From the NCBI GenBank assembly GCA_022829145.1, contig CM040752.1:29109586-29173585 (forward strand): 64,000 nt of DNA, written 5' to 3'. This DNA is from Albula goreensis (lineage: Eukaryota > Chordata > Actinopteri > Albuliformes > Albulidae). Positions 11,652 through 64,000 of the stretch are shown piece by piece. A model generated the notes under the pieces. That model searched no databases. It saw only the letters and a program-made list of their open reading frames with translations, and had not been told where the DNA came from. The translations under genes and the position numbers were made by a program. Numbering within the stretch: the stretch's first letter is position 1; every line of letters begins with the position of its first letter.

Positions 11652-11819
11652 GTCGACGCTCTGAGATTGCGGTTAGAAGAAAAAGAATCATTTCTCAACA
11701 AGAAGACCAAACAACTGCAGGACCTTACAGAGGAGAAAGGGACATTGGCCGGGGAGATTAGGGACATGAAAGACATGCTGGAAGTCAAGGAGAGGAAGAT
11801 TAACGTCCTTCAGAAAAAG
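11652..11819 (+). CDS. erc2: ERC2 coding exon A (56 codons, coiled coil)
   Basis: An internal exon of ERC2/CAST, a presynaptic cytomatrix protein that scaffolds Bassoon, Piccolo, RIM1 and liprin-alpha at the active zone. Translation starts VDALRLRLEEKESFLNKKTK and ends VKERKINVLQKK, without gaps against the family. ESFLNKKTKQLQDL favours ERC2 over ERC1, which has a more ETMLNKKTKQIQDM-like stretch (recalled). The acceptor is TTCCATCTCAG and the donor AAG|GTAAGC. Both ends are phase 0. The 56 residues are exactly eight heptads and are rich in K/E/L/R, as expected for a coiled coil. The open frame continues through the donor into the intron, but family similarity stops sharply at QKK, which fixes the exon end. 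By family length this is roughly residue 490 onwards of about 950. Confidence 0.96.
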
Positions 11820-13978
11820 GTAAGCCATTGTGAAGTGAAAGATGAAGTTGTCGGCTGGAGCGGAGCCCGTTTTGAGGCTCAGCTTCTCTGGGGAAGCCTC
11901 GATGCACATATTTGGCCAGTTTTCTCTTTGCTGACACATATGAAAATCAAGGCTTTAACCATTCACATTCACAAAGAAATCAGCCAGTCAGCATACACAT
12001 TTAATATTTTGAAAACGTATTTCAGCACGTTGTGAATATTCAAAATGGAGCTGTGGGAGGTAAGTGCTTTTTTTCTGTTGTATATTCACAGTTGGTAATC
12101 TATTAGAACGAAAGCCAGTCAGCCTAGGTTTCATACACATTTCCCACGCAGCCGTTGCTTTGAAGTACCACTCTGGATTTGGCGCCCCGGTTCAGCTCTA
12201 GGCACGGGGTTTGTATTTTCCTCAATCAGCTCTATGACTCCTGACAGTAATCTGTGGACCCGGCGGTCTGCGTGGGATGCTCTCAACTTGGTCTCTTACC
12301 CACCGGCCTGTTTGGTCCAGGCCCTCCCAGTGCGAAAACCACACACCCACCTGCTGGGCAGAGCGCGACAGTGACAGAGCACATCCACTCCGGCGGCTGT
12401 GGAAGGCTAGGAGCTTTGGCTCTCTGGGGCCAAAGCAAACAGCCAAGTCAGGCTGAAGATTTACTGTGTAGGACCTCCACACCAATGATGGAGTTTTTCT
12501 TTATTTTTCTATTTAATGATTCTGTTGGTTCGTGTTGGCTTGAAATGCGTGCTTCACTGTTGGATGGGAAGGGCACCCATTCTCACCCGAAGGGAATCAA
12601 AACGGCTTTCACTGTCTGCATACTGCAGATACAGACATGCAAACACATTCAGACACACACTCACACGCACATGCACAAATATGCATAAAATCACCTATTG
12701 TGTCTTCATGACCTTATAAAACATGGTTGAAGTACAGCCATTCAGTGGTCTTCAAGAAGAAGAAAGGAATCAAGCTCGCTCTTAAAAAACACTACTTGAA
12801 GATAATGTTTATTAAGCTAGACAGGTGTGTCATCTGTAACCATTATCCTGATTTAGTTGTACAGCTAACGTAATAAGCTGAGATGACTCGTCTTATGAAC
12901 TCAGGGACAGACGCTCCTAAAGGCAATTCAGAGAGTAATGACTTTTATAAGGTTAATTTCAAATCGTGATTCAGGCCCACCTGTAGTGCTTGTTTGCCCT
13001 GATATTTTACAGAGGTCACCTGTCCCAATTAAATCATTTGATGATCCCTGCCTGTCCATTACATTTTTTATGAGGGAAGGTGAGATTTTCCTCTATTTTC
13101 CCTTTTTTCTCTCTCTCTCTCTCCCCATAGAGTTTAATGACAGCTCTTTTGGTTAATTTGTCTTGCCATTTAAAAGAGAGACAGAGGGCGGTGGGTCCTT
13201 GCTGTGTTGTGAGGGGCAGACGACCTTTACCAGTGCTTCATGTTATGCCTCCATTTTCTTAATTGCCCCATCACATAGGACCTGGACCGTACTAAGACAC
13301 TAATGGGCAGAACTGAGATTAATGAGGCTTAACACTCTGGATGTGACAATCCACTAATCTGGTGTTACCAGAGCAGTGCCATGCTGTGCTTGACCTTTTC
13401 TTACCTGACCCCTACACTTTCAGATGCCAGACGTCTAAGCCGTTTGAACAGCCAGAGATTTGACATCTCACTGCGTGGGATTATTTCTACCTTTCACAAT
13501 GGACAATGATATACTTTCATTGAAAGGCTGGTGTAAAGAACATGTACAATTATTTCATATCCTGTGCATTTTACTGCTGTCATTGTCCTTGGTCAGATTT
13601 TGCCCCGTGCCAGTATGGTTGATTCACCTCTGTGTTCTTTATGAGCTTTCTGTTGTTGTTGTTGTTTTTGTTTTTTCTTTCTTGTTGCTCATATCAGGTT
13701 TTAGCGTATCAATTGTAAATTATTTCATCCAAAAGCTACCACTTCCTGTAACAGTGCCTGAGAAGTCACCCTGTGAAGGACCTTGCAAACTGCTGGACTG
13801 GTGCAGGCTACCCAGCAGTGCAGAGCTGTCAGCACCTATTCCCATTAAAGCTACAAGGGATGTTCTTTGGAGTATGAAATTGAGTGGCCTTGGTATGAAG
13901 CTTGAAGGAGTTTCCTGCCTGCCTTCCCCTGGGTTGTGTTATAAATATCACTCTCTCCCTCTTTCTTTTTCCTCATTC

Positions 13979-20109: not shown

Positions 20110-20244
<135 letters not shown>

Positions 20245-22938
20245 GTCTGCTGTCTGTGTTGATACATTTGTGTGTAGACACAAAGGAAAAAAGGAGGAGA
20301 TTGATATCTAGGAGAATCATAAGTCATGAAATCAATAAGTCTGAAACACAATTAGATATCAGCCATTACTCTCCCATGTTGGAGGTGGTGATTAGGATTA
20401 GGGTATTGTTAAGCCCAATTATGGTCCAACTTAGGGGCAAGCTATCTGATTCCAAGGGCCAATTTTAGTAGGCTGTAATCACCCCATTCTTTAATGCAGG
20501 GTGCTTTCTTGTTGGAGAAATAGCTCCCAGACTTTGAACCACCCTGATGTGCTTCTAACAGGGAGAGAAAGGAGGGTGAATGAATCCAAAAACTGGTTAG
20601 AGCACAAAGGCATATCATGATTTATTGCTGTTAGTGAAATAGTTTGGTTCTTACTACTTCAGCCATATTATTATTATTAGTAAAAGTAGTATTTGTGTTA
20701 CTATTTATATTAATTGGTGTCTCCAACCATATCTAGGTAAACAATGAACATGTCCTCTTGTACACATCCCAACTTGTTTTATCATCATTCTTTACTGTTT
20801 ACACACAAGCGCTGAGAGGTACAAACATATCAGGTTTAAGTTCACAAGGACACATTCCTGCATTGTGAGTTTTTCTTGCCTTGTAATGTTGTGTGTTACT
20901 GGACAGTTTTATCGTCGTAGAGCACACAGAGAGCTGAAGACGTCATGGAGTTCAAGCGTAGTTTTAAAGCAATGACAACCAATTATCCAGCTAATGGCCA
21001 TCTTTTGCTGATGACCTTTAACCTTGTAGCAAAAGGAAATCTGAGGCACTTTCTGGGATTGCCTTTTGCAAGACTAGGAATGCATAAGCGACAAGGTCCC
21101 AAGCCTTGTGGAACTGCAGATTGACCCTCAAGAAAAATGTGCTTACAATTAGCTGACGGGAATTAGATAGTGGGGAATTTTTTAAAAAAAGACCTCCATG
21201 GCTATGCAATCTTATGCAATCTTTGCCATGACTGTGCTTTCCAGTGCACACTGGTTTTTAAAATACTGTATCATTTATCATGCATCACTTACTTTGTCGA
21301 TCTTAAATATATTTAAGCAAATTTTCTGGTCATGAACATTATGGATGTCTACATGTAGTATTTAAAAAGTGTGTCAGATTTTGTCCAGGAAGTGATTTTT
21401 GGCTGAAATGGCATTACACACTCTCCGTTATGTCCATAATAATCATGTGAACCGCTGTTTGTCCAATAGTTGGCCACTTTGAAGAAACAGTGTAATTGCC
21501 TCAAGTTTTATCTAAAGGACTGCCTGTGTAAAACCCCTGATACCTAATATACACAGTGTAGTACGAAATATTGCAATTAACAATGTGCACTTAGTTATAT
21601 ATATATGGAAGAAATATATGATAATTGTCATGATTTATTTTTGATGTTGATGTATTTTTTCTGTATTTTAATTGATGGCTCAAACTTGTTATTTCATAAT
21701 TCTTTCAGTAAACTCAGAATTATAACATATATGACTTTTTATGAAAGGGGTTACACAACCAGGCTAACCATAAGACATGGATTATGACCATATGAAATTA
21801 TAACCCCGTGATGGGTGGGCTTAGCATTTGGCAAGTTCATTGACTTGGGCAAACACTCTCAACTCTTGCAAGACACAGGGTCATAGTGTAGCCATATGTT
21901 GTACTTGGATTAGGGCAGTTATGTTCTAATGTCTTTTTTTTTTTTTAGAAATTTTGTGAAGCCTCATTTGTCCTTTGCACTCATCTCTAACTGGATTCTG
22001 AGCCGTCTGTAATAATGAAAAATGCCAGACAGCACAGCTCTGCACGTTTGCCAGACTGTAATGCATCTCATCCATTCAAATAGCTTTGGCTTGGAACAGG
22101 AAGCTAGTCTGAATGCCCTAAATGAACTGGGAGATTGCTGTCAGGCACTGGTGGCGTGCAGTGAACTGAATGCTGGGTGTGTTTGGAGAAGCACAGACCA
22201 TCCTCAGAGAAGCCCTTTCTGTGGGATTATGATGTTTCAGTGATTCTCATCCTGACAGGTTGACAGAGATCAGTATTGGGGGTGCTGGGGTGTCAATAGG
22301 CCATGATTAGAACACATGCTCGAAGCTGTAGATGTGTCAGATATAGAGTTACTCTAAGTAAGACATGTGCAACACAGCATTTATGAGACGCATATGTTGG
22401 GGAAGAAATTGCACAATAAAAACCTGAGCTTTAAAAGGGGAAAAAGAGGGGAAAACAGAATTGTCAATAAATGTTAAGATGAAGTCTGAGAAATTTCAAC
22501 TTTCAACTGACAGAGTATGCTGTGTGCATGTTTCTGAACTTATCTGGGTTCACTATGATGGCTGAAGTACTGTGCTTTTGTTGTGAAATACTGCGTAATT
22601 ATTGTTTATAACTTTTAAAAGAAATATGTGTACTTCACTTACAGTTAATGCAATATTTTCAGTACATAAGCACTTTTATTTGACGGACACTTAAAGAAAC
22701 CCACTGTATTTGGAAAGACTTCCCGGGCGGTTTCCCGGACATGGATTAAGTGTAGTCTGAGACTTGATGTTTTTCAGTGGAGACGTGCTGAAGATTTCTT
22801 TTAGTGTAGAGCTAGGTTTAATACTTAATACATAAAATCAGAGGACAAAGTGATGGAAACATCTAGCAATATATGCATTTATTATCAACTGAAATTGAGT
22901 TAGGCTACCCTTTGCCCTCAGGACAGCTTCAGTCCTTC

Positions 22939-32400: not shown

Positions 32401-33634
32401 ATTCCTTATAATATAGCATCAGCCCTGATTAGACTCCACAGGCAATTACTATGAAAGCACACCAAAGACCTTTGGTTTTTCACCCATTCAGCTCCATCAT
32501 AATTTCCCTGAGAAAGCCTGTAATGTGTGTCATTTGGTGAACTGGTGACTCTTTCCCACCATGTCGCATCAGCTAGCCTGCTATCAGCACTTCATTCAAA
32601 ACATGGTTAACGGAGGCGTTCAGCTGGGGTTGGCTGTAATCAAAGCAATTTAGCTATTGAGATTCTCAAGCTTGGTCTGTGGCTTTCCTGGCAATTTTGT
32701 ACAGTTTTCGTTGAAGATAAAAACCTAACTGCAGACGTTTTCTTCAGCAGAACAAAAAGTACATAGGAGTTTTGTTTAATTCATTCAGAAATAGATGAAG
32801 AGATTTTTGCATTATCTGTCAATATACCCATGACTGGTATGCTTGCAATAATGTCATGAGAATGTTTTTCTTACTTGGCTTAGTGAGGGCTTTTCTCTTT
32901 ATATGCTGGTGGTATTTCCCTCATTTTCCATTTCCCTGTTTATGTTTTGTCTCTCATTTCTGTATGTTTTGTAGTTCTTGTCGTTTCATTTTTTTAACCA
33001 AACATTTTTTTTGTGTGAAAGAAAAGAGTGTTGCTATTTACCGAAGGTGTCTTTTGACCCAGCTGTGTCATCTGTTGACATTTTTCAGTCTCAACTCGGG
33101 CTTGTTTGCGCTCGCTAGTTTTTGTGTTATTCAGTGATAATGGTTTCACTAAACAGCCTCGGATATTGCAAAACTTGTGGTGACGTTTGGATACATCAAA
33201 TCACAGTTTGCATTTTTACTGTGGCCAGGAAGTGAAAAATGATATCCGTAATGATCTTGAGTCATAATGATTTTGATGTGAATCAAATTTGTTTACCATT
33301 AAAAGACATAAAAGGATCCCTGGTGCTGAGCTGTCTGGACAAGGGGCAAAGAGTGACTCTTACTAAACGCACAGAATTGCCAAAACCAAATAACTCATTA
33401 ACAACCCTCTTCAGAGACGAAGGGAGGAAAAAAGATAGAATGCAAATGGATTTTAAAATAAATGAGTCTGTTGTTTACATCTCTTTGTAAATATTGCTTA
33501 GCATATCTCTTCAGAAATCCTGTTCTATAAACAGACTTCATTTGTGTGGAATGGCTTTGTTCATCATTTAATTATGTAGGCATCTGCATAGCTTGCATTG
33601 CTTATTGCTCTCTCTGTCTCTCCACTTAAATCAG

Positions 33635-33772
33635 ATCGAAAACCTCCAGGAACAGCTAAGAGACAAAGACAAACAGCTGACCAACCTGAAGGACAGAGTG
33701 AAGTCACTTCAGACAGACTCCAGCAACACAGACACTGCTCTGGCCACCCTGGAAGAGGCGCTGTCCGAAAAG
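33635..33772 (+). CDS. erc2: ERC2 coding exon B (46 codons, coiled coil)
   Basis: Encodes IENLQEQLRDKDKQLTNLKD through TALATLEEALSEK, an almost invariant block of ERC1/ERC2 that follows NVLQKK of exon A directly. The acceptor is CTTAAATCAG after a CT-rich tract. The donor is AAG|GTACTC, a weaker-than-consensus site. Both ends are phase 0, so skipping would keep the frame. It lies in the central coiled coil, the region reported to bind Bassoon and Piccolo in CAST (family knowledge, not visible here). The surrounding open frame 33593-33994 runs into both introns and is not the exon. Confidence 0.96.
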
Positions 33773-36700: not shown

Positions 36701-37186
36701 ACTGGCTTATTTAATTTATGACAATCTTCCCTGTGCTGAAGGAGGCCAGGGTTGCTTGGGAGACATTTGATATTGTCATTGGTGACACTTTTCCTTCTGC
36801 ATTGTAAAAATGGCCCGTATGGAACTGTGAGCTGGGTTACAGTAACATCTCCGTCTCCCGCTGTGAAAGCAGGACTGCATTCGTGTCTCAGATTGGTTTT
36901 GTGGCATCTCAGTTAAAGGGCATGGCCACAGCTCACTGACTCAGGTTGACCACAGAGGAATTATATTTTTTTTCCTGTCATCAAAAATATATGTTTAATG
37001 TTGAAGAAAAGCACAACTTTTACACATTGAGCTAGATTCGATTAAACACTGTCTCTAAAAAGGAAAAAAGTAGAACCCTCTGCTAAAAGACAAAACAGGC
37101 TGCTTCCAATCTCTCTTTCTTGTTGTTGTTCTCATTGATATAATGAGCTGACTTAAATCTTCTGGCCTTGCCTTTATCGTTGTCAG
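33773..37186 (+). other. erc2: ERC2 intron B-C (3.4 kb)
   Basis: Runs from GTACTC to TTATCGTTGTCAG. It holds a poly-T run at about 34630-34645 and a GC-balanced unique stretch (34190-34520) that stands out from the AT-rich background. The rest is AT-rich without recognisable repeats or genes. Confidence 0.85.
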
Positions 37187-37327
37187 GAAAGAATTATCGA
37201 ACGGCTGAAGGAACAACGGGAACGAGAGGACCGGGAGAGACTGGAGGAGGCTGAGACCTACAAGAAAGAAAACAAGGACCTAAAGGAGAAGGTTAACGCT
37301 TTGCAGGCCGAGCTGACAGAGAAGGAG
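37187..37327 (+). CDS. erc2: ERC2 coding exon C (47 codons, coiled coil)
   Basis: Encodes ERIIERLKEQREREDRERLE and then EAETYKKENKDLKEKVNALQ AELTEKE, matching ERC2 in order and length. Against the mammalian form recalled (RERDDRERLEEIESFRKENKD), changes are conservative: D to E, IESFR to AETYK. The acceptor is TTGTCAG and the donor GAG|GTCAGT, phase 0 at both ends. Two GGGGTGGGGCAG-type repeats begin 12 nt after the donor. The segment is extremely charged and continues the coiled coil. Confidence 0.96.
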
Positions 37328-37339
37328 GTCAGTGTGCAT

Positions 37340-37358
37340 GGGGTGGGGCAGGGTGGGG
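37340..37358 (+). promoter_or_regulatory. G-run cluster next to the exon C donor
   Basis: Four runs of three or four G lie 12-30 nt downstream of the exon C 5' splice site. G triplets in this position are known intronic splicing enhancers bound by hnRNP H/F, and the spacing also fits a G-quadruplex in the pre-mRNA. The donor itself (GAG|GTCAGT) departs from consensus, so an aid to recognition is plausible. The function is inferred. Confidence 0.4.
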
Positions 37359-38709: not shown

Positions 38710-39679
38710 GAACAAACAAAGATAGTTTTCTTACAACTATTGCAGCACATAACAAATCAAGCCAGGGCAAAGTTTTAACTGACTTTGAAGTTTTATATAT
38801 TTATTTTTTAAAATTTACAACAGCATTCCAGCAGTTGTAATATGGTACCGGAGACCCATATTTAAAGTGTTAACATTGATTGTAAAAGTAATTCACGTTT
38901 TTTACCACCACTCATGTGCCTACATAACCCCTCCAGAGGATCCCTCTGTCACTTTGTTCCTTAAACAGGCCATTTGCAGCTCCATACTCCCATTCCTGAC
39001 AGAATGCCAAACTGAATTATTATTGTTCCAACCAAAAAAAAAAAAAAAAAACATGCTAGAGCAATCTTTCGGTATATTAAAATTTATGAGAATGCTTTCT
39101 TTTATATTCATATATGTATCTTCAAGTATACAGATTTTGTTCCAGCAAATTATATTTTATTAGCTGCTGACACAGAGAAACAAATGGGAATTCTGGAATC
39201 AGTGGAGCTATGAAAGCTTATCAGAAGCAGATGAAAGAATATACATTATTCAACCATTGTACACAATATGATACACTGTGTACTCTTTTATCTGTACATA
39301 TACATGTTTACCTTTTTCCCCAGTATAATAATTTTGAAAGCATTGGCCCATAACTAATGAGCGATTCTCGAATCTCTCGCATTGTATTGTTGATTGACCC
39401 ACAATTCCCTCTCTCTCAGTGTGTTGTTGTGAGGGGAACTAGTCTGCTTGGAGTCTGGTAATGTTATACTGTTGGTTATAACTTTCCTTCAACTAATTCT
39501 GTTAGATGATTCATCTAACAGATATCAAACCTGATGGAACTTGGAGGAAACAGAAGAGTAATAAACAAATTGCATGCATGTACTGGTGCTTTAGATCCAT
39601 TTCACTTCAGTCCCCCTATCTAAACATGTATCAGAAGTGATCTTACTGACTGTCTGGCTATGGTTTTGTCTCGTTTCAG

Positions 39680-39820
39680 TCTAGTTTAATTGACTTGAAA
39701 GAACATGCATCATCTTTAGCTTCGTCGGGCCTGAAAAAGGACTCCAAACTCAAATCCCTGGAGATTGCCATAGAGCAAAAGAAGGAGGAGTGTAGTAAGT
39801 TGGAAACACAATTGCAAAAG
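39680..39820 (+). CDS. erc2: ERC2 coding exon D (47 codons, coiled coil)
   Basis: Encodes SSLIDLKEHASSLASSGLKK then DSKLKSLEIAIEQKKEECSK LETQLQK. KSLEIAIEQKKEECSKLE is the ERC2 form; ERC1 has a more KTLEIALEQKKEECLKME-like segment (recalled). This is one of the best paralogue discriminators in the window. The acceptor is CTCGTTTCAG and the donor AAG|GTAGGT, both phase 0. An (AT)n run starts about 30 nt after the donor. The open frame beyond QLQK (to 39919) is intronic. Confidence 0.96.
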
Positions 39821-40259
39821 GTAGGTAGCAGCTGGAAGAAAAAAAAAAAAATATATATATATATATATATCAACTTCCTGGCCCATATTCCGAGCCCTCC
39901 AGTGGCTCCTGTCGGCTAATGACCAGTGGTGGTTCACCTTGTGTAAATGCACAGTTGGGTGTTTTGAACAGGGTGAAATTCTGATGAATATCACAGGGGA
40001 GACGAACAATAGAGCCTGTGTCAGCGAGGAAACGAGCGTAAAAGCAGGACGTGAACCCGAACAACTATCGCTGTATCAACCCCCCCATCCCCCTGCCCCC
40101 ATTCATGGGCTCAGGAAGTTTTATACTGGCAGGTTGTTTAGGCTGGGGACAAAACATGAGACGCTTTCAACTAAATCCAATGGTAAAATCATTAGCTTTT
40201 CAATAAATGTAAAATAGATTTTTTTAACTGAACAGTGAAATTGCTACAAGCCCTTCCTC

Positions 40260-47426: not shown

Positions 47427-47620
47427 GCTCACGAAGCAGAAGAAGTGGCACGGATGAACCCAGAGTTTGTTGAAAAGGTGAAGCTCCTGGAGAAGGAGGT
47501 TGCCTACTACAAAGATGAGTCAGGGAAGTCCCGCGCTGAGGTGGACCGGCTCCTGGAGATTCTCAGGGAAGTGGAGACGGAGAAGAACGACAAGGACAAG
47601 AAGATAGCGGAGCTGGAAAG
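47427..47620 (+). CDS. erc2: ERC2 coding exon E (64 codons plus 2 nt)
   Basis: Encodes AHEAEEVARMNPEFVEKVKL then LEKEVAYYKDESGKSRAEVD and RLLEILREVETEKNDKDKKI AELE, ending with AG, the first two bases of the next codon. RMNPEF is characteristic of ERC2; ERC1 has a SPEM-type stretch here (recalled). The first eight residues are the most diverged part of the slice. The start is set by phase 0 from exon D and by family residues AH after the preceding K. The acceptor CAATACGTGAAAG has almost no pyrimidine tract, and the donor AAG|GTAGCA is weak. Without splicing the frame would read AGG TAG, a stop just after the exon. Confidence 0.94.
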
Positions 47621-47894
47621 GTAGCAGACTTCCTCTTTTATGTCAAATCATCCACAAAATTGTAAGGAGTGAGGCATCTCATTAGTGCTTTTTCCAAAGT
47701 GAATTATGTAGTTGCTGTGAATTCATCACATTACTTTTGTAGAGAGAAGGTGCAATCTTTGTAGAGCAACACTGCAGAGTCTCCTCTGGGCTCCTACTTT
47801 AATTGAATGTAGTTAACAGGACTGTATTGTAGCACTGAAAAAACATCCAGTGAAAGCACTGGTTTCAGAATCCCCATGGCCAGTTACAGCATCT

Positions 47895-48085
47895 TGACCC
47901 GTGCTCCTGGAGAACCATGGAGTATGCAGGTCTCTTCCAGTCCAGCAATTAAACCTTATTTAAATAATGATGCTGAAAAGTTGGTGCGCAGTTAAATCAC
48001 ATTCACTAGTTGAATTCCAACTGGGTTGGAATAGCTTGAACCCACCCAATCCATGGAAACCACTTATATCAGTTCTGGTCCTATG
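47895..48085. repeat. Foldback dispersed repeat, possible copy 2
   Basis: Carries CCGTGCTCCTGGAGAACCAT and TATGCAGGTCTCTTCCAGTC on one side and GGGTTGGAATAGCTTGAACC and CAGTTCTGGTCCTATGAGG on the other. The flanks are roughly inverted, and the core resembles the teleost repeat proposed at 3232-3412. It is more decayed, and the boundaries are approximate. Confidence 0.4.
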
Positions 48086-51000
48086 AGGCTAAAGACATCA
48101 GCAACGCTTTCACAGATTTGTCAACATTTAATTCTTGGAGTTAAACCAGGTAGCATGATAGGTACATGAAAGCTGAAATATTGAACAGAGAAAGGAGCAA
48201 CCTTTGGCTATCAACAAGTAAATATTTATTGGCTTTGCAGTCAGGAAAAAAGTCAGTGATTGCTTCAGGCACTCAGAAATCAAAACAAACACGGAGTGTA
48301 GTGAAGGCTTGTATCTGCTCGCATATACCTTGGTTTCATGCAATGTGTTTTGCATCAGTGTTTTCAGGCAGCAACAGAAGCACAGTTTTTCCTCTGACTG
48401 TAAAAGTCTTCAATGTTTTCCTGTAGCAGGTCAAAGGTTGCTCGCTTCTAGTTTGTTGTAAAATGCTCACGAAATCTTGGAATTTATAATCTAGCCATTG
48501 AAATTCTTTTTGATAACTGGCAGTTCCCCTACTTTACCATATGCAGAATTTTTTGTCTTTGGCTTTGTCAGTCTTTGATAGAGAAAAGGCAGGGAATTTT
48601 GTTCCACCTGTAATACTATACAATGATAATTGTTCCTTCCTACAAAGGCACTCCTGCACTGATTGATTTCAGTGAATAACAAATGGAAACAACATAAACT
48701 AACAGTTAAATGCACTAAATTCATTAGTTGAATAAGCTAATGAATGAGGTAATAGCACAGCACTGAAGTATAATATAGGATGGTTTCCGATAAAATAAGT
48801 CGATTTCTGTCTTCCTGATGGTCTTTATTTCAGAGATGTGTGCAAAAGCTTGCTGCTTTTCTGTTAATTGTATTTATCTGTATTTATATAATCTAGTCAA
48901 TGGGAAAGTAAAGTCATTCATTTTCACTGCGTTTTTATGAGTCATATTTATTTCTTCATTTTTTTTCACATTTTCATTCACAGACCTGGGTGAGTATGCA
49001 ATTGCTGTTTGCCCTTTCCTCTTGGAGAGAAAGTGCTGCATTAATCTTCTGCACGAGATTTTCTCAATCATGTGCATTTCTTTATTTGGACTAAGCATGT
49101 GAATCTTGTTCAGACGGTCATGACAAGATCATTTGTTTGGCTAACAATTACATTCTCGACCCACCAGTAAGGGTGCCACAGAAGCTGTAGATAAGATCTT
49201 GGTAAATAAGAAAAGGAAAGCAGCACTTACTATCTAGTGTTGCTGAAGGGTGAATTTGTTCTGCCAAACAAATGCAACTTTGTTCAGTAAAACCTCAACC
49301 ATATATGTATATGTAAGTTGTACATATATGACCCTGTGATCCCTTCTTTATATTTCTATTTTTATATTACTGTTTAAGTGTGAGCTTTGTTTCTCCCCTT
49401 GTTTTGGTGATTTGGTTATTTCTATCTCCTGCCCATCTCTTATTGAGTCACCTGTGAATGTATCTATACCTATGTTTAAACTGTTCTTTGATGGAGTAAT
49501 TGTTCTCTAGCGATTATTTACGTAGCATGCCCAATACCCTCACCCTTGACACATTTGATGTGTTGGTTTTAATATGCTGTGTATCCTTGTATTTACTGTG
49601 AATGTTATGTAATAGTATTTCAGCCCTCTAAAATGTATAGTGTGCATACTGCTACATTACATAGGCAGGGCCTCATCATTATGAGGTTTTCCAGCAGATG
49701 TCTGTTCCTTCTTCGGAGGTTACATGTATTTTCATATACCAAAATACACCGTTAAAGGAAGCAAACAGGAGGATAGATCCCCAGATCAATATGTGATTGT
49801 GCTTGTGGTTCAGTTTAATGAGAAACCTAAAAAATCCAAAATAGTAAACAGGTAGGTAGGAGGAAGGTAGGGCTTATTTGTTTTGTCTGGAAATGAGAGG
49901 TAGGCAGTGTAGGTTTCAGAAATTGCTACCTTTATGTATTCTTTTATTGTTGATGTAAATATAGTTATGGTATTGCTTCAGGCGTTACAGTACATTACTA
50001 ATTCACGGTTCCTCTTTGATTTTTTTCTTAAATGTGAATTTTCAGGTGTTGGTAAATGGATTGGGTTTGTTTATATCCATGCTGGGTATTAATCAAGCTC
50101 TTTCCCAACATGTCAATGGTTTCATACATTTGAGTGATTACTGTCAAGCTTAGTTTATGGAAGTTGAAAACAAGCCAAGGAGATGTTATGCTACCTGATC
50201 CAAAAAAAAAAAAAAACATATTTATGCTTCTTTGTATATAACTGGAAAAACAGTACTCAATTATGATCTGATTTATAGATTTGCTTCTTGTTTCACTAAA
50301 ATTACCAGTTGCTCATGCCAAACTGTCAAGGCGTGTGGTTGAAGGAGGCCTGTGCATGAATGCCAGGTGCGGGGAAATTAGCTTTGTTAAGCATTCATCT
50401 ATCTGAAGGTACATTCAGGTGTTCAAATAAACACCGTCATAATGGAGATCCCCGCTTTACCCTCACCGCCACCTCCCACAGCTTGTCTCTGAATAAATGA
50501 ACACAGTGTAAACGTGCCAGGCCGTTTGGCACAATGGATGCAGCTGACAGTGTGTTGAAATCAGAAAACTTGAGGGAAAGTTTTAACAGGCAGAGTGAAG
50601 GGCGAGGACTTCAGTCAAGTAGGACCTCAGTATCTTTGCTGTCGATGTGAGGGCCTCCATGTGTTTGCACAGCCTGCCTCCGCTTTGATAGCTGTCTGTT
50701 GGAAACCTTAAATGCCCTTTCATCCAAAAAAGCAGGGCTTCCTGGATGATGTATGCATCCTGCAGAAACCGTGTCCTGCAGTCTGTGTAAGTGAAGGAAC
50801 TCTGGCAGTGTAAGGGCCAAGAAAATCTCTCAGTTGCTGTACAGTGGTCTCTAGGGACGCATGTCTTCCCTGAAATGTGCTGCAGTTTATAAGAAACCAG
50901 GGTCTCGAATACAAAACACCAAAACACCTTACAATGTATGATCACTTGATGGGGACAATCGAAGTAGTGTATAGTAAATTAGCATTATAAAATATGTGTT

Positions 51001-54000
51001 TTCAAACATATCTAAATGATGTAAAGGTCTGACTTCAGTCAGAACCACTTGGTGATTTTAAATAAGGAAAAATGTTATTAAATGAAACAAGATTTAAGCT
51101 TGACAAGTTAAATCACACCCATGTTCATAAAAGTACCAGCTTTTCGCTGATATAGATCTCAAGAATTCTCAAAAAGGGCTGAAAATCCGGGCAAAAGGAA
51201 GTTGTGGCCTTAAATAATGTGGTGCCAATAGCTGACATGTATGATATAAATAGATTAGAATCTGTTGACATTTTCTGTATATTTTGGCAGGAGTTTTTGT
51301 TGCTGTTAGTCTACTTTCATGAATATTGTTCTGTCACACATACTAGTACATATGATATATATTTTCTATATTATCAGGACAGTCTTCCATGCTAATGCTG
51401 AAGAGGTGTAAACATTGAATTGACTCTATTTCACATGAGAACAATAAAGCTAAACTTTTACCGCTCAGCTAAGGTCTGACCTATTTTGTTAACTTGTTTT
51501 CTCAAGCACTCTATATAACGTCATTTTGGCAATCCCTAACTATTTCTGTGTTATCTTGCTACAGCAAGAAAAAGACACCGCCTAATTAATCCAGAGGGAT
51601 TTGTTTTGGTTAGATTGAAACACTGTTGTCTTTAATGTGGTTAGGTGGATTTTATTGGATCCAGGTGCACAAAGGAATGAAACTATGCAAGAATAGCTAT
51701 CATGCTGATGGTAAATCTGCATGTAGAATAGATGCATGCAACAATGTGCATAAACCTCTTCTGCATGAATATTTTGCATGCAACGAAAAACAGGAACAAA
51801 TCTATCCAAAACAGCAGTGTCAGTTTTCCGGTTGTATGTTTCATTATGTCCTCAATCTCGTCATGTTGAAGGCTCTGTCTCATACCCATGAAGTGATCAG
51901 TGAGTGTTTAATGACTGGTGTGTTTCTGTGTCCTCCTCTATCATCGTGTCCTGCCCCACTACCCTTTTACCCCTTTCCATTACCACCTTCTCTGTGTCCA
52001 CCTACCCTGCCCTTCACTGCCCCTCTCACAAACTCCCATCACCCCTTTACCTGACTCAATCCTGGGCAGAGCACCCTCTGATCAACACCTCTCTGTCTCG
52101 GCCGCCCCGCAGCAGATAGGGGGGCTGATGTGGGATTTCTTGGGAAAGTGAGTGCTCTGCCCTGGCTGCGCAGTGTCTGTCTGTGTGTGCATCAGTGGTT
52201 CTGCATGTCAGTGAGCCTGGTGACCCATGGTTGCACTCAAGAGAGCATGAACACTGGCCTTGCCACTGTTTCTTGACCACTTGCTCCATCTTCCCAAAAA
52301 ACGTGGACTCCCACCTTTCGTGGACCCCTGTACATCCACTTAACATGCTGAGTGTGAAATGTGATGCCTGCTCTCTCAACTGCTTGACTATCAGCACTCT
52401 GCTTTATAACTCTCATTCTGAGCCTGAATGCTCTCTCTGCACCCGCCAAGGTGACCCTCAGTTTCCCCTCCACCACCATCTCTTACATTGGGCTTCATTC
52501 ACCAAGCAGTTACACATGTGAATTTGCACTTTTTTTCCTTTTCTCAAAGCAATATATAAGATGAGACCGAGACACTATTTTGTCTGACCCTATCTTCTGT
52601 CAATGCATTCTCTTTGTGATCTCAAATTTTCCTTTAAATTTACATGTTTTATAATGCTTTTAAAAACCTTGTAAAAGTATGCATGTGTAAATGTTTGATA
52701 AGAGAGGCCCAATGACTATAAACACACTGTCTGAATCATTAACACAGACCCTAAACACAGAAAGCACACTGACCCATTCAAACTCCGTCTCATCATCACG
52801 CAGTGACTATACACATGCACGAGTACCTGGTATACTTTGAGAACTCCCTCTACACCTCACCCATGGACTGTGAACATGTTCCCTACTTCATGCTCTGCCT
52901 CTAAATACACAGTCCACACCTCACACACCCTGTCTAAGTAAATACACCCTCCACCACCATCTCACACGTGAAATCCCCTAATGCCATCACACACCTTTAC
53001 TCTTAGCACACAATCTCTTTCTCTCACACAGACCTTGAAAACTGCCTCAACCTCTGCCCCTCTAACCTGTAACAGACTACTAATGCCTGTGAACACGCTG
53101 CTGCATATGTGCTCGCTACTTTTAATTTTGACTCCTTCCGTAGCTCTAGCTGAATTGAAAAAGTCATGAGCATTGTGCTCTCTATGCGGGAAGGTAAAAA
53201 CAGGGAATTAACAAGGTAAAGCATTTTAGTCACAAATAACTAAGCATGCAAAAATGCAGGCATTGAAACTATAAGCTGTTTTTACCACGTGACTGTGTTC
53301 CCTGTCTTGCCATCAGTTCATTGATCTATCACCAGACTTGCAGTATTTCAGGCAGGGGTAGTTTTCTGACATACAAGGTTAATGGTAACATGTACTCTCT
53401 TGAGAGTGATCTATTCTGTCACTGTAAGGAACCTGATATGAAGTGAGATTCCAATTGATAATAGAGAGAAATGGTCAATATGCTTTCAACTTGAACTTAA
53501 TACGGCTTGAACTTAATAACTGAAATGTTTTTATACCAATGTAATATCCTCTGTCATCTATCACTCCTCTGCCCCGCCCCGCCCACTGCTATAACTCAAA
53601 AAAGACAATTTAAATATACCATGTCCTCTAATACAGAATATGAGCAGCTTCAAGGAAATTGTCACTATGGCACTGTACTATGTGTATGTGTTTGGCATTA
53701 ACCGTCTAAACGATGACCATATTGAGGGCCATAAATCTAGCTGATGCCCAATAGCCATTTAACATGTAACCGACATTATCACTATGACTGAATAATGGTA
53801 CGCCCTGTAGTTTATTTAACCCTTAACCTCACTCCCTGTAATCTTAGAAATGCAACTCAATCTCATAGTTGTCGGGAGGACAGCGTGGTGTTTGTGAGAC
53901 TGACGCGCAAACCGACTTGTCGAAATGAATGTGCGGCAGAATCTGAGACAGTGATAGTTGAGACATGTGACTTACCCTTTTGGGAGCTAGGCAACATAGC

Positions 54001-54334
54001 TGAAGAAAATCTTGGTATGCAAATAGCTTACCAGTTTGCTTCTAGTGATCAGTCAAAATGACTCTGCTCACTGTACTGACATTAGGTGAATGATAATTGT
54101 AGATAAATTATGAATATACAGTAGCCAATTACAAAACAGTACTGCTTCAAACACCTCAAATTGTTGTAATAAAGGAAATATCTCCAGGGTGGTTTGATTT
54201 GATTTGCTGATTTTAAAAATGTATACATTCAGTTGGAAATTACTTATTTAAATGTAACAAAATGTTAAAATTAAGTGTAAACTTTGATTGAACCGACCCT
54301 TATAGTGATTTGTGAAAAAATGGCCCTTATGAAA

Positions 54335-54590
54335 AAATCACATGAAAATATCACATTTCTTCCAGATATGTGGTTTTAAATATCTTTCATGTGAAAATGG
54401 TAGAATTAGCATATGAACCCTGAATGAAACATATGTGAGCGTACAGTTTCACATATCAACAGCTTACCTGTCATGTTTTATTTTTGTTTTCATTTGAAGA
54501 GCTCAGCTCAGATGTGAAACAAGCTATTTCAACTTTAAAATGTCTAAAATCCTCGTGTCTGAAAAAAAAGAATATTTCACATGTCAAATA
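54335..54590. repeat. Cluster of TTTCACATGTGAAA-like half sites
   Basis: At least six short matches in both orientations: TCACATGAAAAT, TATCACATTTC, TTTCATGTGAAAA, GTTTCACATATC, GATGTGAAAC and ATTTCACATGTCAAAT. They look like remains of a short palindromic satellite or MITE whose unit is near TTTCACATGTGAAA. There is no coding content. Confidence 0.5.
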
Positions 54591-54945
54591 TCATGTTTTA
54601 TAATGGGATAATGTAATTATTTTACCATTGGCTAAGATATTCACATCTAATTTAATGCCAGCTAATTTCATACATATCATGCAGAGAAAGCCAGAATACC
54701 TCATGGAATACTGGAAGAATAATAATGATTTAAAAAAAAAAAAAGCGCTTTAAAAAGCTTGCCAATATCGTTCCAGTCAGTGCCTTCCCTTGAACTCGCA
54801 TTTATCTGCACTGTTATCCTTTCCTTCAGAAACTGACAGCATACAGCATGAGTGCCCTCCAAAACAATGTGCTTATCTGCTGCTGGATGTTGTCAAATGC
54901 CCTTTGCTTCCAACTGTTATCAGTTCTTTTTTGTAAGCTTTAAAG

Positions 54946-55106
54946 TTCCTCCTGTTGTTTTTTTTTTTTAAAATTACTTTTCCTTTCTAATGTGTTCCTT
55001 GCCCATTTTTCCCTCCTGTTCTTGGACTCCTCTTCTTCCTCCTCCCGTCTGCCCTCGTTGCACTTGTTGGGCCTCCTCCTGCCTCCTCCTGTCCTGATTT
55101 TGACAG
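54946..55106 (+). promoter_or_regulatory. erc2: Extended 3' splice-site region of the microexon
   Basis: From the AG at 54944-54945 to the acceptor AG at 55105-55106 no AG dinucleotide occurs, a 159-nt AG-exclusion zone. A branch-point-like TTCTAAT lies at 54985-54991, with the candidate branch A at 54990, about 116 nt from the exon. Most of what follows is C/T-rich with UCUU-type blocks (TCCTCTTCTTCCTCC near 55030), the kind of site bound by PTBP1. A TGC at 55080-55082 is a possible but distant SRRM4-type motif. Such arrangements are typical of regulated exons with distant branch points. Regulation here is inferred. Confidence 0.6.
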
Positions 55107-55118
55107 CTTGGCTTCCAG
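55107..55118 (+). CDS. erc2: ERC2 12-nt microexon (four codons, phase 2-2)
   Basis: CTTGGCTTCCAG lies between a clean acceptor (TTTTGACAG) and donor (CAG|GTTAGT). Exon E ends in AG, so joining gives AG+C TTG GCT TCC AG, that is Ser-Leu-Ala-Ser plus the start of an Arg or Ser codon. In ERC proteins KKIAELE is followed by SLTSR (ERC1) or SLTLR (ERC2) as I recall them, so this exon supplies exactly the expected next residues. The 12-nt length keeps the frame whether used or skipped. In a coiled coil, four extra residues make a stutter that shifts heptad register. Its size makes it invisible to open-frame scans. Confidence 0.85.
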
Positions 55119-56282
55119 GTTAGTAGAGCCTTGCCTTGTCTTCTGCCCCTCATAGCTCAGTACATGCTGATCAGTATTCCTTTAACTCTCAGCAGCTGAT
55201 CAGTAATAAAGCCACTTATCAATATTTCCCTCCCTGGATAGTAATGGTCTCTCTGCAGCATCTATTTATGTTGCTGGGTTAATGTCCACATTGTTGCACA
55301 GAGTCCTCCATCCCTAGGACTCAATGTTCAGTTATGTACCACTCTGCAGAACTCCCAAACACAATCCGCGCTGGGGCAGTGAGGATTCAATACTGGACCA
55401 TACGGCCAGTGTTGTTTAGAAATATGTAGTATGGCTATGATGCCTTTAATAGTCATGGTTACACACCTGCAGACAGAGTTCTGAGCCTTTCACTGGATCT
55501 ATGCCAAGTGGAAATAGTAAATAGATTTTATTAATAAATCCAGGGAAAAGGGCTTCATATTCTGAAGGAAGTGATGTGTTATAGCAAGAAAAAGGACTAA
55601 AACAGCACACTGTGTTCTCAGAACATTCAGAGACGAGTCTCACTGTGCACTGGCCTGAAATAATGGTCTGTTAATTAGTGTATTTATGTTGAGACAAGAG
55701 CCAAGAGTGTGAACATCATAGACAGTGAAAATGACATATGGCTTCCTCATGATTGAATTTAGATCTTTTTTTTGTGATTCTATGTAACATTTTAACATTT
55801 TTGTGTACATGACTATCATCCCAGTCAAAGAGTCTCACGATACAAGCTGAACATGCTGTAATCTATTTCATATATTAAAAAAATGGGAAACTTAGTGTTT
55901 AAACAGTTTCCTGTAATGAGGCATTCAAGCAGAGGGTATTTTGTGGTTAAGGGTATAACACATCCACCCCACACATACTTCTTCCCAGTCCAGTCGATCA
56001 AAGTCTGTACTGTAGAGTAAGCCTTGATAAAGCTGGTGCTGCAGATTGTACAGAGCCATTGGAACGGATGTTGGAGGATGTGATTTGTACCAGATGTGAT
56101 TGTGTATGCTTCAGCTTTTGCTAAAGTATCTTCTGCAGCTCTCTGTTTTATGGGACCACTCTGTAGCTGGCTTTGTTATGGGAAATCAGCCTGCCAGACA
56201 TTTTTTCCCCTTGGTTTGATTAACTCTCCTGTACTGTTTCCAGGGAAGAAACAGAGGAGAATGACAGAGTGTGTGCGTGTTT

Positions 56283-56363
56283 GCGTGCATGCATGCATGC
56301 ATGCATGCGTGTTTGTGTGTCTGTGTGTGCGTGTGTGTGTTTGTACATGCATGCCTGTATGTT

Positions 56364-56434
<71 letters not shown>
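56283..56434. repeat. GCAT run and (TG)n microsatellite
   Basis: A short ATGC tetranucleotide run (about 56286-56308) and a mixed TG/TTTG stretch lead into an uninterrupted TG tract of about 35 units (56364-56434). Cys-Val and Thr-His open frames on either strand are repeat artefacts. Confidence 0.97.
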
Positions 56435-56435
<1 letters not shown>

Positions 56436-59400
56436 TGCCTGCGTGTGTGTTTATGTGTGTGCACGCTTAGGTCTTAGGTGTTTAGGTGTTTGTGTGCTGG
56501 AAGCTTTAGCCAGCAGGAACATTTTATAGAGTTAGGAGAAATGTATTATAGCTGGAAGAAGCTGCTGATGTAATGCTGTAATTGCATATGTAAATAAATA
56601 TTCAAAAGTAATGAATAGACTTGATGTTAAGGGTTATTATTATTATTTTTTACCATTAATAAATATGTACAATTAAGAATCTGTGTTTATCTGAGTATTT
56701 GTATGTTGATTCCACTTTAGGAGTGATATATAAATAAGTACAGGTTATTTTCTGTTAGAAATCAGATCGGGTTAATGTAATGCTGTACAAGAGATGGCTG
56801 GCCTCCAGTGTATAAGGCCATCGCCAGGGAATTTTTACACTCTAAGGATATCTCACACTTTCACCATCAGCTGTACACTTAAATACATAAAGTTGGCTAA
56901 TGGGGACATAGTTATTTGAGAATGTTGTTTCAACAAAGTTTTGTACCAAAGCATAAAAAATGTCTCCTGTTCAACGTTTAAATACAGCATGGCATTGCAA
57001 TTTTCAAGGTTTTCAAGGAAAACAAGGTAAAGAATTTGCATAACAAAAGACAGAATAATATTAACTCTCACCTCATGAACAAACATATTTTCAGTCCAAG
57101 AGACGCTTCCCATTTTCATCACCGCTGGCCATTGGAGTAATTTGTTACACTATAGTTGTCATTTTTCTCCAGACCTTTATCCTGGAAAAAAAGGAAAAAT
57201 GAAAACATTTAAGGGCTTTCACAGCCAGGAATAAACTTGAGCTGCTTATTTTGGAAACTTCCTCCAAAGATTCCTCCACTTGGAAGATGTCTGAGGAAAT
57301 TTGAAAAATGACTTTTATTACTGATGATTGAGGAGCTGAATGTTTCCATATTGTGGTAATATCTTTTAAATGTTTTATGGTGTAACGTCTGTTGCAGCGT
57401 GCACTGTTCCTGCTTTTATAGTTAAACGATATCCTCTCTCAGCCCAGGAATCTCTCTGCAAGCTGTGCTATCTCACTGCACTGTGGCCGTGTGCCTGAAT
57501 GCAGGTTTCCCCACATCTCCTTACCAGGGTTAAAAGTACACCACAGACAATTTCCTGTCAGGGTTAGAGACTCTGCGTTTACAGTTGGGCTCTTGCCGTT
57601 TCTGCTCCTGTGATACGCTTTGGTTCCATAGAAGCCCATCAGAGACCCTCCCCGCTGCACTACTTTAGGGATATAGTTCACCTTGATCAGCGCACCATCC
57701 AAAGAATGCAAAGGCACATCTGTTTAACTTCCCAGGATGCCTCTCCCTGCAGTGTTTGTGAATGCTAATTGGTTTCAGCTACCCTACTCCCACTAGCTTG
57801 AAGGCGCCCTGTTGTTGGCTTTGGCTGTACCTTCTTCTGTCCAAAGGTGCTGCCACTTCGGTTGACATGTAATGTAGGTTTTCTCAGGAGGGTCAGAGAT
57901 CAGGAAAATGTTTTATCCATGTCGTATGAGATTAACCGGAAAGCTCAGTGCATTTCCTGTAATGATGTTCTGTAATGTGATGGTGGTATTGTATTTTTAT
58001 GTGCCTTCAAATAAGTTACAGAAGTTTCCAGCCTTTTCTGGCTGGCCTTCTCAGGGAAAAGCAAAAAAAAAATCAGAGCTATGTGTGTTAAAGCCAACAG
58101 TAAAATTCAAGGATTGTTTCTTTTTTCTTATTGAATTGACCCCTCAGTCTGTTAGCCGTGGATATAAAAGGCGCCAACCCTCCAAACTGGACTGACCTTA
58201 TCAAACCTCCCTCAGCTGCTTGCGGTAAATATTAACAGTCCTGTTGAGGGAGGCTTGCCTGATATCCTTTTCTCTCCTTTGTGTATGGACGTGCATCTGG
58301 GAATCGTCAATATTTTCTGTCCACATCCCCGTTTAGAATACAAAGTAACAAACTCTCGGGTGGGATTATCTAAATAAGCCGTGGGAGGTCTGCGATAGCT
58401 CCCAGTTGAAGTAAGCAGCGTCCAGTTGACAGTCCGTGTGTCTGTTTCCAAGGGCAGCTTGTCAGTGGACTGCAAAGGCAGATTACTTGGAGAAACTCAG
58501 GGATAGCTGGAGCCCACCTCCTCAGGTATTGGGCACAGGCCACAGTTCCCTGTTGTGAGTACAGTGCTTAGAACCCATTGCTTCAGTTCAGAGAGTAGGG
58601 AGGGGCAGTTCTCCTGAGCCAGAGGGGTTAAACACAATCACTGCTTCACTAACGAGAGCCACCAAGGCAGTAGAGCTGGCTGCATGTGACAAGCGGAGCG
58701 CTTTACTGTGGAATTCCTATGGCACTGTAACCCCTTTTTCCTCTAATCTCTCTCAAGATAAAAAAAGTAATTGAGCTCCTTAGGTCACCATGTGATTTTT
58801 TTCCTCTTTCCTACACCCTCTTTTTGTAGAATGTATTCCAGTTGAAAATAAAGTCTTTTAGAATAACCATTTTTGGTTTTCAGAATCAGGTTAAATTGTA
58901 CAATTGCTGTGTCACACTGTTCTGTGATAGAGGGAACAGAAATACCATACACTGTACCCTTTCACATATTGCAAACAGGAAATAAACTGTGAAGCATATG
59001 AGTTTACTGTCAAGCAATCAAACCTACACCCTAAAATTATAACTAATCATAAAATCATAATTTGTCTCAAACGTCTCACTTAAAAATGTAAGTAAGCAAA
59101 AGCTTATGACCAACTAAACTTAAAATAAATAAAACTTAAGGACAAAAAAGTTTACCGTATATAGCATTCTATGGCAGACTGTAGGCAGTTTTATGCCAAT
59201 GGCATTAGCAGCCTCTGTCATTCTATACGTCTGATTTCTACATTAAAACAGCAAAATGGATTTTCAGAATCCACAGGCAGGCCTGCTGTACTTTTAAACA
59301 GATGTTCCCTGCAGGCTGTGGAACCAGTGTGTGTAGCAGTATTTCTCACTTTCTCATCTCAGTTAATAAAGGAAAAAGTAAATACACACAGCAATACAGA

Positions 59401-62400
59401 TTAGGAAATAATATTAATGTAGCCAGACAACAGTTGACATCAAGGCACTACGAATCAATGATTTGAATCCACTGGAAATTGTAAAGCAATATGCTATTTA
59501 CAGTAAGGGGACAGCTCAAACTATATAAGGAGGACTGCGCCTTTGTGCCATTCATCAAAGAAGATAACAGGATTTTGTGTGCTCATGCAGTATGCAAACA
59601 TTTAGAGAATGTGGGTTAGGGTGTACCTGTAGTGCTTTCTTTTACTGAAGACATACAATAGCCCAAGAGAGGCAATTTATTTTGGCACGCAAGTCAAAGC
59701 AAAGTGCAATAAAATCTGCAGCATAAAATACATTCTGAATATCTATATCTAGTATCATCTATGTCTATGTTAGCATACTATTAATACATCTGACAATGCA
59801 ATAATAAAAATAATAATAATGATAAAAATAATGATGATGAGGAATTCACACACAGATGCCTGGCTCCAAGGTTGTAGTGGTGCCCCTCCCTGCAGACCTG
59901 TTCTTTCCACTCTGAGCTCTAGGTCTTGCCTTGGCAAGAGTGGCCATTTTTCTGTCAGAGCAGGTTAGTCACGGCTACCCCCTCACTCCTCGGGCCGGGA
60001 AACCCCTCCTCACTGTAGCTGCCGTCTGCCATGGTAGAAGTTTCAGATGCCGCTCCAAAGAGCTGGCCGACCAGAACCCAGCTGTTTTTATTTTTCTGTG
60101 TTTAATTACATTCTTTCTTTCATGCGTGGTATGAGGCCCGCTCTATGCTCTATGACCATATTCTCTGTGTTGACAGAAACCCTTAAAAGGTCTGTTTTAT
60201 TTTGGTGCTTGCTTTTAAAACTCTCTGATGTCCCTGCAGTTAAACCAAGAGGTATGCTGTGGTGTTGTCTAAAAGGGCTCATTTGTTGTTGTCACTTTTA
60301 TCGCTGGCCTAGTGGTATCGACGGGGACCAGTCAGGGACAGGCTTCGGAAACACGCACAGCCCTTCCCTCCATGTCCGCACCTGGGAGCAGAGCCTGTAA
60401 CCTCAGGGCCTTGGTGCTGGAGTCCAAATGCACTTACTGTACATGTGCTATGTCAAAAATCCCAGATTTAAGGATCAGGTTGCACCGAGTTAGGGGAAGG
60501 AGTAAGGCTGTGGTACTGTAAAATGGGAATTTATGGTGCAAAAACCCACAAGACATGCACTGACAATGTTACTCTCCTGTAGTGTAATGGTCCAGTTGAA
60601 CTCGCTACTGGTGTTTATGATACATGATACACCCCTATACATGTTCAGCTGAAACACATTCAATGATTTTTATCTTTTATTTTCTTGATATGTGACCGTC
60701 CACCACTAAATCAAGCACAAACCCTCTTGTCAGGCAGCCAGGTGCAGACTGGGCCTACTGGTGATGTTTTAATTGCCCTTATATCATAGCTTTAACTGAA
60801 GTTAAGGATGTTTGACATTTATGGATATTGACATTTGGATATATGAAATGGGGAACTGTGGGAAACGCATTAACACACCAGTCTTTGTAGGTTACCGCTC
60901 ACCAAAAGTCATTGACAGCCAGCGGTTCCCAAAATGTGCGGTTCTCAGAGGTTGTCTTGAGGTATGTTGAAGTGTAGACCATTTGCTATGTCATATGAAA
61001 AAATAATCCATATTTTTCCAAGTACTCAGTCAGAAGTATTTGTAGTATTTGTACTTTCAGTCTTATGGTAACTATGTTGTCACTGTGTCAAGTGTACAGT
61101 AATGAAGCTTTGGTACAAATCAGATCCATCTGCATACAACAGTAATCAGTAACATAGTCATAAAAGAATTATTGTTTTAAGGATTCCTGACTTTTCTTTT
61201 GTCTTGCCATCGGAATGTGAACCTTTGGAAATGAAAACATAAGGTAGTATATTCATCATCAGCTGTAAAAGGCTTTAAAAGAAACACAGCCCGTGTCATT
61301 AAAATTCACCATGCTTTATGGAAGCTGGTCTTTATATCAATAGCATGAAAATGTATAAAGTACTGAGTGTGTATGACAATGTAAGGTGCATGGCGGTTAC
61401 ATGCACCAACTGCAGACAATGGTTAAGATTATTGAATTCCAGATATCCAGTGCACCTGGAAATGTTGATGTATTGTCCACAGAAAGTCACTGTTATCAGT
61501 GTTCATTGACTACATTTAACAATTCCCTTGCAGTTATCTGTTAGTTGTTTGAACAAGCCCGATCAAAGATGGATGTGGTCTTTACTTATCGCCGTTTCAT
61601 CGTTGCCGGTTGCGCCAGCAGCAGCATTTCTGGGAGAGCAAGGAGGAGCCCGTGCTTTGCATTTTTACGTGGGGCATGTGTCTGTCAGTATGGCTATCAA
61701 CACCTCCAGTGGAAGTTTGCAGTTTCTTTTGGCCCTGTGCCTGCATTTTATTCTCTTTTGCTTTGGGACTAGGAAGAGTGCATTTCTACAGTTTACAAGG
61801 CTGGGCTTTTGTCGTGTTATTTATTCATTTATTGGTTTATTTTCAGAAGCCAGAAGCATAAATTACCCACCAACATCGACAGCAACAGGGCAGGGAGCAT
61901 GCACCTCAACACAGTAGTTTAAGATACCTTTTCCACAAATATTTGCCCAAACGTTAGAGAAACATGTACATTTTCAGCAAAGCAAACACCATAGTCTCAG
62001 AATATTGAATAATGTATACAAATTCACACTACTGGTTGAAATGCTGTTTACAGTAATTGACCGTTCTCTTAAAATCTAATTTGTCAATGTCAGGTTTCTT
62101 TGCTTAGCGTCTTTTTATGTGTCAACTCAGAAACTGGAGCTACTGCTTATTCAAAGGCTGTCTTTTGATTCCCTACTGCTAAGTACCAACGGCACAGAGA
62201 CATCTCTGAAGAGGCCTTCAGTTTAACATGAAAGATTAGGCCTCTTTTATGTTAAGTGGTGTAGTTGGAACATGGATGCCTGGTGTGTCTGAATAGAGGA
62301 CCCGGAGCTCATGGTTTAGATAAACAATCCAGGAACCTTATACCTGTTAATTGGAGGATATCAGAGATTTATATGCTGGCAATAGTGCTTACAAAACAAA

Positions 62401-62768
62401 AAGAACAGTCTTTAATTTTCATCGGTATTCATACGCCTCTGTAAACAGAGTTTTGAGAGCTCCTTGCCGCTCTGTTAATAGATTTACTGGATGAAGCTGC
62501 TAGCACAGTTCCTATCCTGTCTGTTGTGTCTTGCCTCGCCATGTATTGTTGCCAAAATAGGTGTGCCTCTTTGTTTCTGTGTTCTAGCAACACTTTGGAA
62601 AATCACAGTGGTCTTTTTTGTAGAGAGTTACTATTATGGGCAATTGGACTGAGCATGTTCAGCGTGGCTAGGAGGGCAGAGGAGAAAAACCAGTAGAATA
62701 CAGTAAAAGCCATTCTTTTCCCAGAGGAGGTGCTCAATCAAATCATTGTGTGACTTGAAAAACCCAAG

Positions 62769-62771
<3 letters not shown>

Positions 62772-62833
<62 letters not shown>
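62772..62833. repeat. (TG)31 microsatellite
   Basis: Perfect TG tract ending in GCGCGC, the third long TG tract in the window. It has no coding meaning. Confidence 0.98.
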
Positions 62834-62839
<6 letters not shown>

Positions 62840-64000
62840 AGTTTTTGGACTCCCCAAAACTGAGGAGGAAAAAAGAATGTCATGGTTTTGTTGGTGCTGG
62901 CACGCTTGCTCTGCTTGCCACAGGAGCACATCTGCAGCTGGTCAGTGCCTGCACGTACTGTAGCAGCAAGCAGGCCACATCTGCCAAAGACCTGTGCGCA
63001 ACCAGAGCCCTGCGCTCAGGCGGCACTTTCGCACAGATGTTAACGTCTCAGGAACATCTGGGTGGCTGGGCTGATTGACAGGTCACGGGGGTTGACGTTG
63101 TGCAGGGAAACACGGCGAGGGCCAGTTTCTTGATCTTGGTTTCTTGATCTCACTGAACAGCAGTTGATTTGTTGGTGTTTATGTACGCTGCAGTGGCATG
63201 TTTCAACCTTACCAGTCGCAGGAGATTACCACGTATATAAAACAGGGAGTTTAGGCCTTTACATCATGTATTTTTTGTCTTCATATGGTTGAATTAACTT
63301 GTCTTCTAACTTACTTGGAACATCACAAGAACGGAAATCTCTGACATTTGTATTTGTTAAATGTATGAATGCATTCTGAAGCCAAGTCTGAATATTTAAT
63401 GTTTGCTGTTTTGCAGCACAGGAACTGTATATTATTGATTTAAAAATTTTGGCACTTCATCTAAGGCAAATAGCTTGCTCTGGGGTAGGATTTCAGACAA
63501 CAAGGAGATGATACAATTTTCGCTGTCTGAAAACTTTTAATCAGACTCCTCTACATTTTATACTGGTGGTGGAAGCATGAATGACAGTGCGATGATACAG
63601 ACTGCAAAAAACAAAATTGTTCCATGTGTGAGAGCATTTAGGACACATTTATTCTATATTTGATTGACAATTTAAGTGTACTCTTTTCACACATACTCAC
63701 ATGCTCACAGAGCGAGCAAGAGAGAGAGAAATGAGTCCTGGGAATTTCAGGCTGCCTCTATCAAATGGTGCAGATGAGATTCCACACTTTGTAGCAGCTC
63801 ATGTTAAACATTGGGTCATACCATCCGGCATCTTGCCACTGTGCGGTGGCCCTCCCCAAAACTCCTTAGGTTGTCTTGCACCTCCAGCCTGCCTGGAACC
63901 CCAGAATGCCCTGGGGGTGAAAGAGAAGCCCGCAGATCTTTGTAATACCCCCGGTGGTGGCAGCCACTTTTTGAGCTGTGAGGGGAATTGGGAAATGAGG

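Follow-up and report, generated by a model that had tools for sequence, protein, structure and literature searches.

Nucleotides 55107–55118 of the window (the whole 64,000-nucleotide stretch of DNA analysed here) very probably form a real coding exon, 12 nt in length, of an ERC2-like gene, homologous to the SLTS microexon of human ERC1. The evidence comes from the splice sites taken together with the code, from counterparts at the same place in two paralogues of this genome, and from the family profile.

Results

The microexon, CTTGGCTTCCAG, lies on the plus strand between ttttgacag upstream and gttagt downstream (AG and GT borders). It runs from phase 2 to phase 2 and encodes S-L-A-S: the AG at the end of the preceding exon (exon E) plus C gives S, then L, A and S follow, and the last AG of the microexon yields R once joined to the next exon. 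At the sequence level, we thus find a 12-nt exon with GT-AG introns on either side and a preserved reading frame. Because both of its ends are in phase 2, the included and skipped forms are both in frame. An earlier note on this DNA had given these coordinates, length, phase and code, all of which prove exact on re-reading of the sequence, as does its statement that exon E ends in phase 2 (at 47620) and that the microexon at 55107–55118 keeps that phase. Downstream of the microexon, an 8-base stretch at 55166–55173, GCTGATCA, is identical in the flank alignment of the window gene with one paralogue (C14, below), which could quite possibly be due to chance.

Exon E (47427–47620, plus strand, 194 nt) matches columns 546–606 of the Pfam Cast profile (PF10174) with E=1.8e-22. 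Its start was inferred by eye from the AG preceding GCTCACGAAG, and its 3′ end reads AAG AAG ATA GCG GAG CTG GAA AG (KKIAELE plus AG), followed by the donor GTAGCA. Four further Cast coding matches lie upstream on the same strand, at 11646–11825 (profile 345–404), 33632–33772 (402–448), 37184–37342 (448–500) and 39677–39835 (495–547); these are limits of profile matches, not of exons. The intron upstream of the microexon spans 47621–55106 (7486 nt, plus strand). The downstream intron, also on the plus strand, occupies 55119–64000 within the window and continues past its edge, to 9439 nt in total. The next exon, at 64558–64654 on the scale of the window (G000:C12:29174143-29174239), starts 558 bases beyond the window edge and was for that reason invisible to the earlier reader. 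It was located by tblastn with the corresponding exon of another paralogue, C17 (52% over 21 residues, E=6.5e-4). Its peptide, (R)QAKDPNKKATNIKHNQPAEKKPGLTDSGQHLQ, is bordered by CCTTCCAG and GTGAGT, and it joins the microexon in phase. The start of this exon is ruled out as the source of the four residues, since it opens by completing R. The introns of the window also hold long TG/CA-type microsatellites, roughly at 20111–20260, 56300–56470 and 62760–62840, seen as CVCVCV runs in the translations.

A search of the genome's contigs (932 Mb, 208 contigs) with the Cast profile gave at least 34 exon matches, all at three loci: C12, which is the window gene, C14 and C17. On C12 the matches follow in order on one strand, with four before the window, five inside it and two after, and this order, together with the score of exon E, upholds the assignment to an ERC/active-zone scaffold gene made in the earlier note. 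In a single 58-residue overlap, compared with human sequences, the C12 product is identical to ERC2 at 56/58 positions and to ERC1 at 46/58; for C14 in the same segment the values are 52/58 and 46/58. C12 and C14 are identical at 54/56 and 49/50 positions in two exons, and C12 and C17 at 38/55 and 44/51, the C17 comparison covering two of the five other segments and excluding the C17 row for profile 70–213. On that one segment, the window gene appears most like ERC2. We take C12 and C14 to be a pair of ERC2-like copies and C17 to be ERC1-like, the latter also because of its match to human ERC1 primers (see below). The C14 copy is compact, extending ∼35 kb from first to last Cast match, as compared to ∼197 kb for C12 and ∼162 kb for C17.

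Both paralogues contain a counterpart of the microexon in the same intron and in phase 2. In C14 it is CCTGGCTCCCAG, followed by gtgagtag, which encodes SLAP and is the best-scoring of 11 candidate sites; in C17 it is TCTGGCTTCAAG, followed by gttagtag, which encodes SLAS and is the best-scoring of 63. C14 thus has P as fourth residue, where C12 and C17 have S. Over the 12 exon bases plus 8 intron bases, each counterpart is identical to the window at 17/20 positions, and the first eight bases of the intron are the same in C12 and C17. No match of 17/20 arose in 500 shuffles of either paralogue intron, the best being 14 and 15. When all 1114 AG-N12-GT sites at the three loci (∼149 kb, both strands) were ranked by identity to the window site, which itself scores 20, the C14 and C17 counterparts came next with 17 each, ahead of 15 and 14. 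This paralogue match is independent evidence.

The splice sites were scored with weights that approximate consensus frequencies. On this crude scale, the microexon is the top-scoring of the 53 AG-N12-GT sites in the 16,937-base intron, with a combined score of 8.0 (acceptor 4.0, donor 4.0); the runner-up scores 6.2 and contains a stop. The donor of exon E is weak on the same scale (0.4) and the acceptor of the next exon strong (7.6). Two other in-phase S-L sites of the intron, at 54463 (SLPVI) and 54758 (SLPIS), fall outside the best six of the 53, and we reject them as sources of the residues.

The earlier note had argued from the match of four codons in sequence, length and phase. The code and the phase are correct; by itself, the argument is not beyond chance, because at least one 12-mer flanked by AG and GT and with an in-phase S-L-x-[S/L] code turns up in 274 of 500 dinucleotide-shuffled introns (mean 0.81). 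Splice strength by itself is not decisive either, with some AG-N12-GT site reaching an equal score in 68/1000 shuffles. The two combined are beyond chance: an equal score together with an in-phase SLx[SLP] code was seen in none of 1000 shuffles. The corresponding counts for the C14 intron are 0/1000 for score and 0/1000 for score plus code, and those for the C17 intron 175/1000 and 1/1000.

The Cast profile has room for the four residues. Exon E ends at column 606, and in C12 SLAS falls on columns 607–610 (column positions are taken from the spans of the matches rather than from printed alignments). With the four residues, columns and residues are equal in number in C12 (92/92) and C17 (104/104); in the skipped form, four residues fewer cover those columns. 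The C14 peptide, even with the four residues, spans three columns more than it has residues. Omitting the four residues costs 9.7 bits in C12, 8.6 in C14 and 9.8 in C17. As a control, nine of the 41 other open candidates from the same intron, picked by hand, were inserted in phase into the C12 peptide; these gave 104.3–108.7 bits, compared with 101.6 for no insert and 111.3 for SLAS, the best of the ten inserts tried. Of the gain of 9.7 bits, length accounts for 2.7–7.1 and the letters S-L-A-S(-R) add 2.6–7.0. Hence the number of inserted residues agrees with the profile, and so, to a lesser degree, does their identity. The reading of these residues given in the earlier note is supported, with counterparts of equal length and phase in both paralogues and in human ERC1 (below). 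Two other searches with joined peptides gave little: the C14 peptide has a LIP-1 (liprin) match, but a weak one (19.5 and 20.4 against a Pfam cut-off of 34.1), which was set aside, and when the C17 peptide was compared with solved structures, ERC chains were absent from the matches, and those to fibrinogen and VAMP2 were weak (E 0.13 or worse).

The effect of the microexon on the coiled coil was assessed with a home-made heptad core score. The best score in the next exon is −0.03 for C12, −0.11 for C14 and 0.38 for C17. When the microexon is skipped in C17, the register of heptads in exon E continues into the next exon (0.38); with the microexon included, it is lost (0.05). In C12 and C14, no register of the next exon has a positive score, and the exon has diverged in both, with proline among its 32 whole codons in C12 and several glycines in C14. 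The coiled coil thus seems to be lost directly after the microexon in the ERC2-like copies. For the window's own gene, the absence of any positively scoring register from the next exon leaves a register switch unsupported.

A human counterpart is in print. Among events chosen for a delta-PSI >40 on SRRM4 expression is one in ERC1, a microexon raised by SRRM4, for which RT-PCR junction primers are given (PMC10250204). Joined by their overlap, these primers read AELE-SLTS-RQVKDQN, from which a 12-nt exon, TCTCACCTCAAG, can be deduced, its limits being our reading of the two overlapping primers (PMC10250204). The comparison with other vertebrates proposed in the earlier note, made here against human ERC1, therefore yields SLTS at the same place, in the same phase and of the same length: as in the window gene, 12 nt follow AELE, encode S-L-x-S and lead into R-Q (primers of PMC10250204). 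TCTCACCTCAAG shares 9/12 positions with the C17 copy and 6/12 with either the window copy or that of C14; over the initial 20 bases of the exon that follows, the identities are 16/20 (C17), 13/20 (C12) and 12/20 (C14). Intron, phase, length and S-L-x-S are thus shared by C14, C17 and human ERC1, apart from the final P of the C14 residues.

Human ERC2 also has a microexon that is included in brain, in both linear and circular RNA (PMC8355340). It belongs to the same family member as the window gene and is likely to be the counterpart of the window exon, although the passage describing it gives neither length nor position (PMC8355340). According to a passage in a review, many internal exons of ERC1 and ERC2 are potentially alternatively spliced, with unknown effect (PMC5830537). 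Our searches of the open-access literature found no paper naming the fish counterpart of this ERC exon and no match to the peptide SLTSRQVKDQ; the term 'micro-exon' was absent from the matches listed for a search combining it with ERC1/ERC2, and the main text of two zebrafish microexon papers contained no erc1, erc2, ELKS or 'active zone'.

Discussion

We conclude that the 12-nt exon is, in all probability, a genuine part of this ERC2-like gene, and the simplest account of its origin would be inheritance from before the vertebrate ERC1/ERC2 split. Inclusion would give KKIAELE-SLAS-RQAKDPN, and skipping KKIAELE-RQAKDPN. We consider it the relative that one would expect of a neural microexon already described. 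It may be spliced in mainly in neurons, perhaps assisted by Srrm4/Srrm3, and the four residues may adjust the stretch that adjoins the coiled coil of the active-zone scaffold. Neural, Srrm-dependent regulation of the window gene is, in our judgement, somewhat more probable than not. The exon resembles members of the SRRM3/SRRM4-dependent neural programme in that it is tiny, keeps the frame, sits in a synaptic gene and has been retained across old duplications; membership would call for neural inclusion that depends on SRRM3/SRRM4. UGC elements are expected close to SRRM4-dependent acceptors. TGC occurs at −57, −48 and −27 relative to the acceptor in C12, at −48 and −5 in C14, and at −27 and −17 in C17, occurrences that may be fortuitous.

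It is also possible, albeit less so, that the exon is real but constitutive in ERC2, lacking switch-like regulation. This would bear on how the exon is used, and would still make it a real exon. The human ERC2 reference protein presumably has SLTL at the position of the microexon; the Cast profile provides columns for all four; and the acceptor and donor, at 4.0 each, are fair. Against this, skipping preserves the frame, as is the case for a cassette exon, and the counterpart in human ERC1 responds to SRRM4 (primer set of PMC10250204). That response was demonstrated for the human exon (PMC10250204).

Why the exon should have kept a length of 12 nt is a matter for speculation. One idea, which we regard as doubtful, is that four residues make a stutter in the coiled coil, such that skipping keeps the heptad register and inclusion shifts it by four; the ERC2-like copies would then have some other use for the residues, e.g., binding or a flexible joint. 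The simple core score is consistent with a stutter in the ERC1-like C17, and the ERC2-like copies keep the microexon without downstream heptads. In C12 and C14 the following exon has diverged and has no register of positive score; this could instead be taken to mean that the microexon is vestigial in the window paralogue, its splice sites remaining but unused after the coiled coil was lost. This is very unlikely, as none of the three paralogues has lost the splice sites, the phase, the length or more than one of the four residues, and C12 and C17 agree over the first eight bases of the intron. Least probable of all is that a ∼17 kb intron with many AG-N12-GT stretches happens to hold one spelling S-L-A-S in phase: shuffled introns readily supply such a code, and sometimes an equal splice score, but never the two together for this intron, and a counterpart at this position in each of the two paralogues speaks strongly against it.

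With a human ERC1 counterpart in print, the window exon is an ordinary one, of low novelty, and its main value is for annotation. In one comparison of 402 mouse–zebrafish microexon pairs, 90.3% were of equal length and 16.1% were absent from Ensembl zebrafish, figures that bear out in general the earlier remark that annotation often misses such exons (PMC7821500). A gene model lacking this exon would be short of four residues that have columns of their own in the family profile. Finally, its conservation in three paralogues offers a small, well-bounded case in which to ask why ERC1 and ERC2 should keep a four-residue insert beside the coiled coil of a scaffold.
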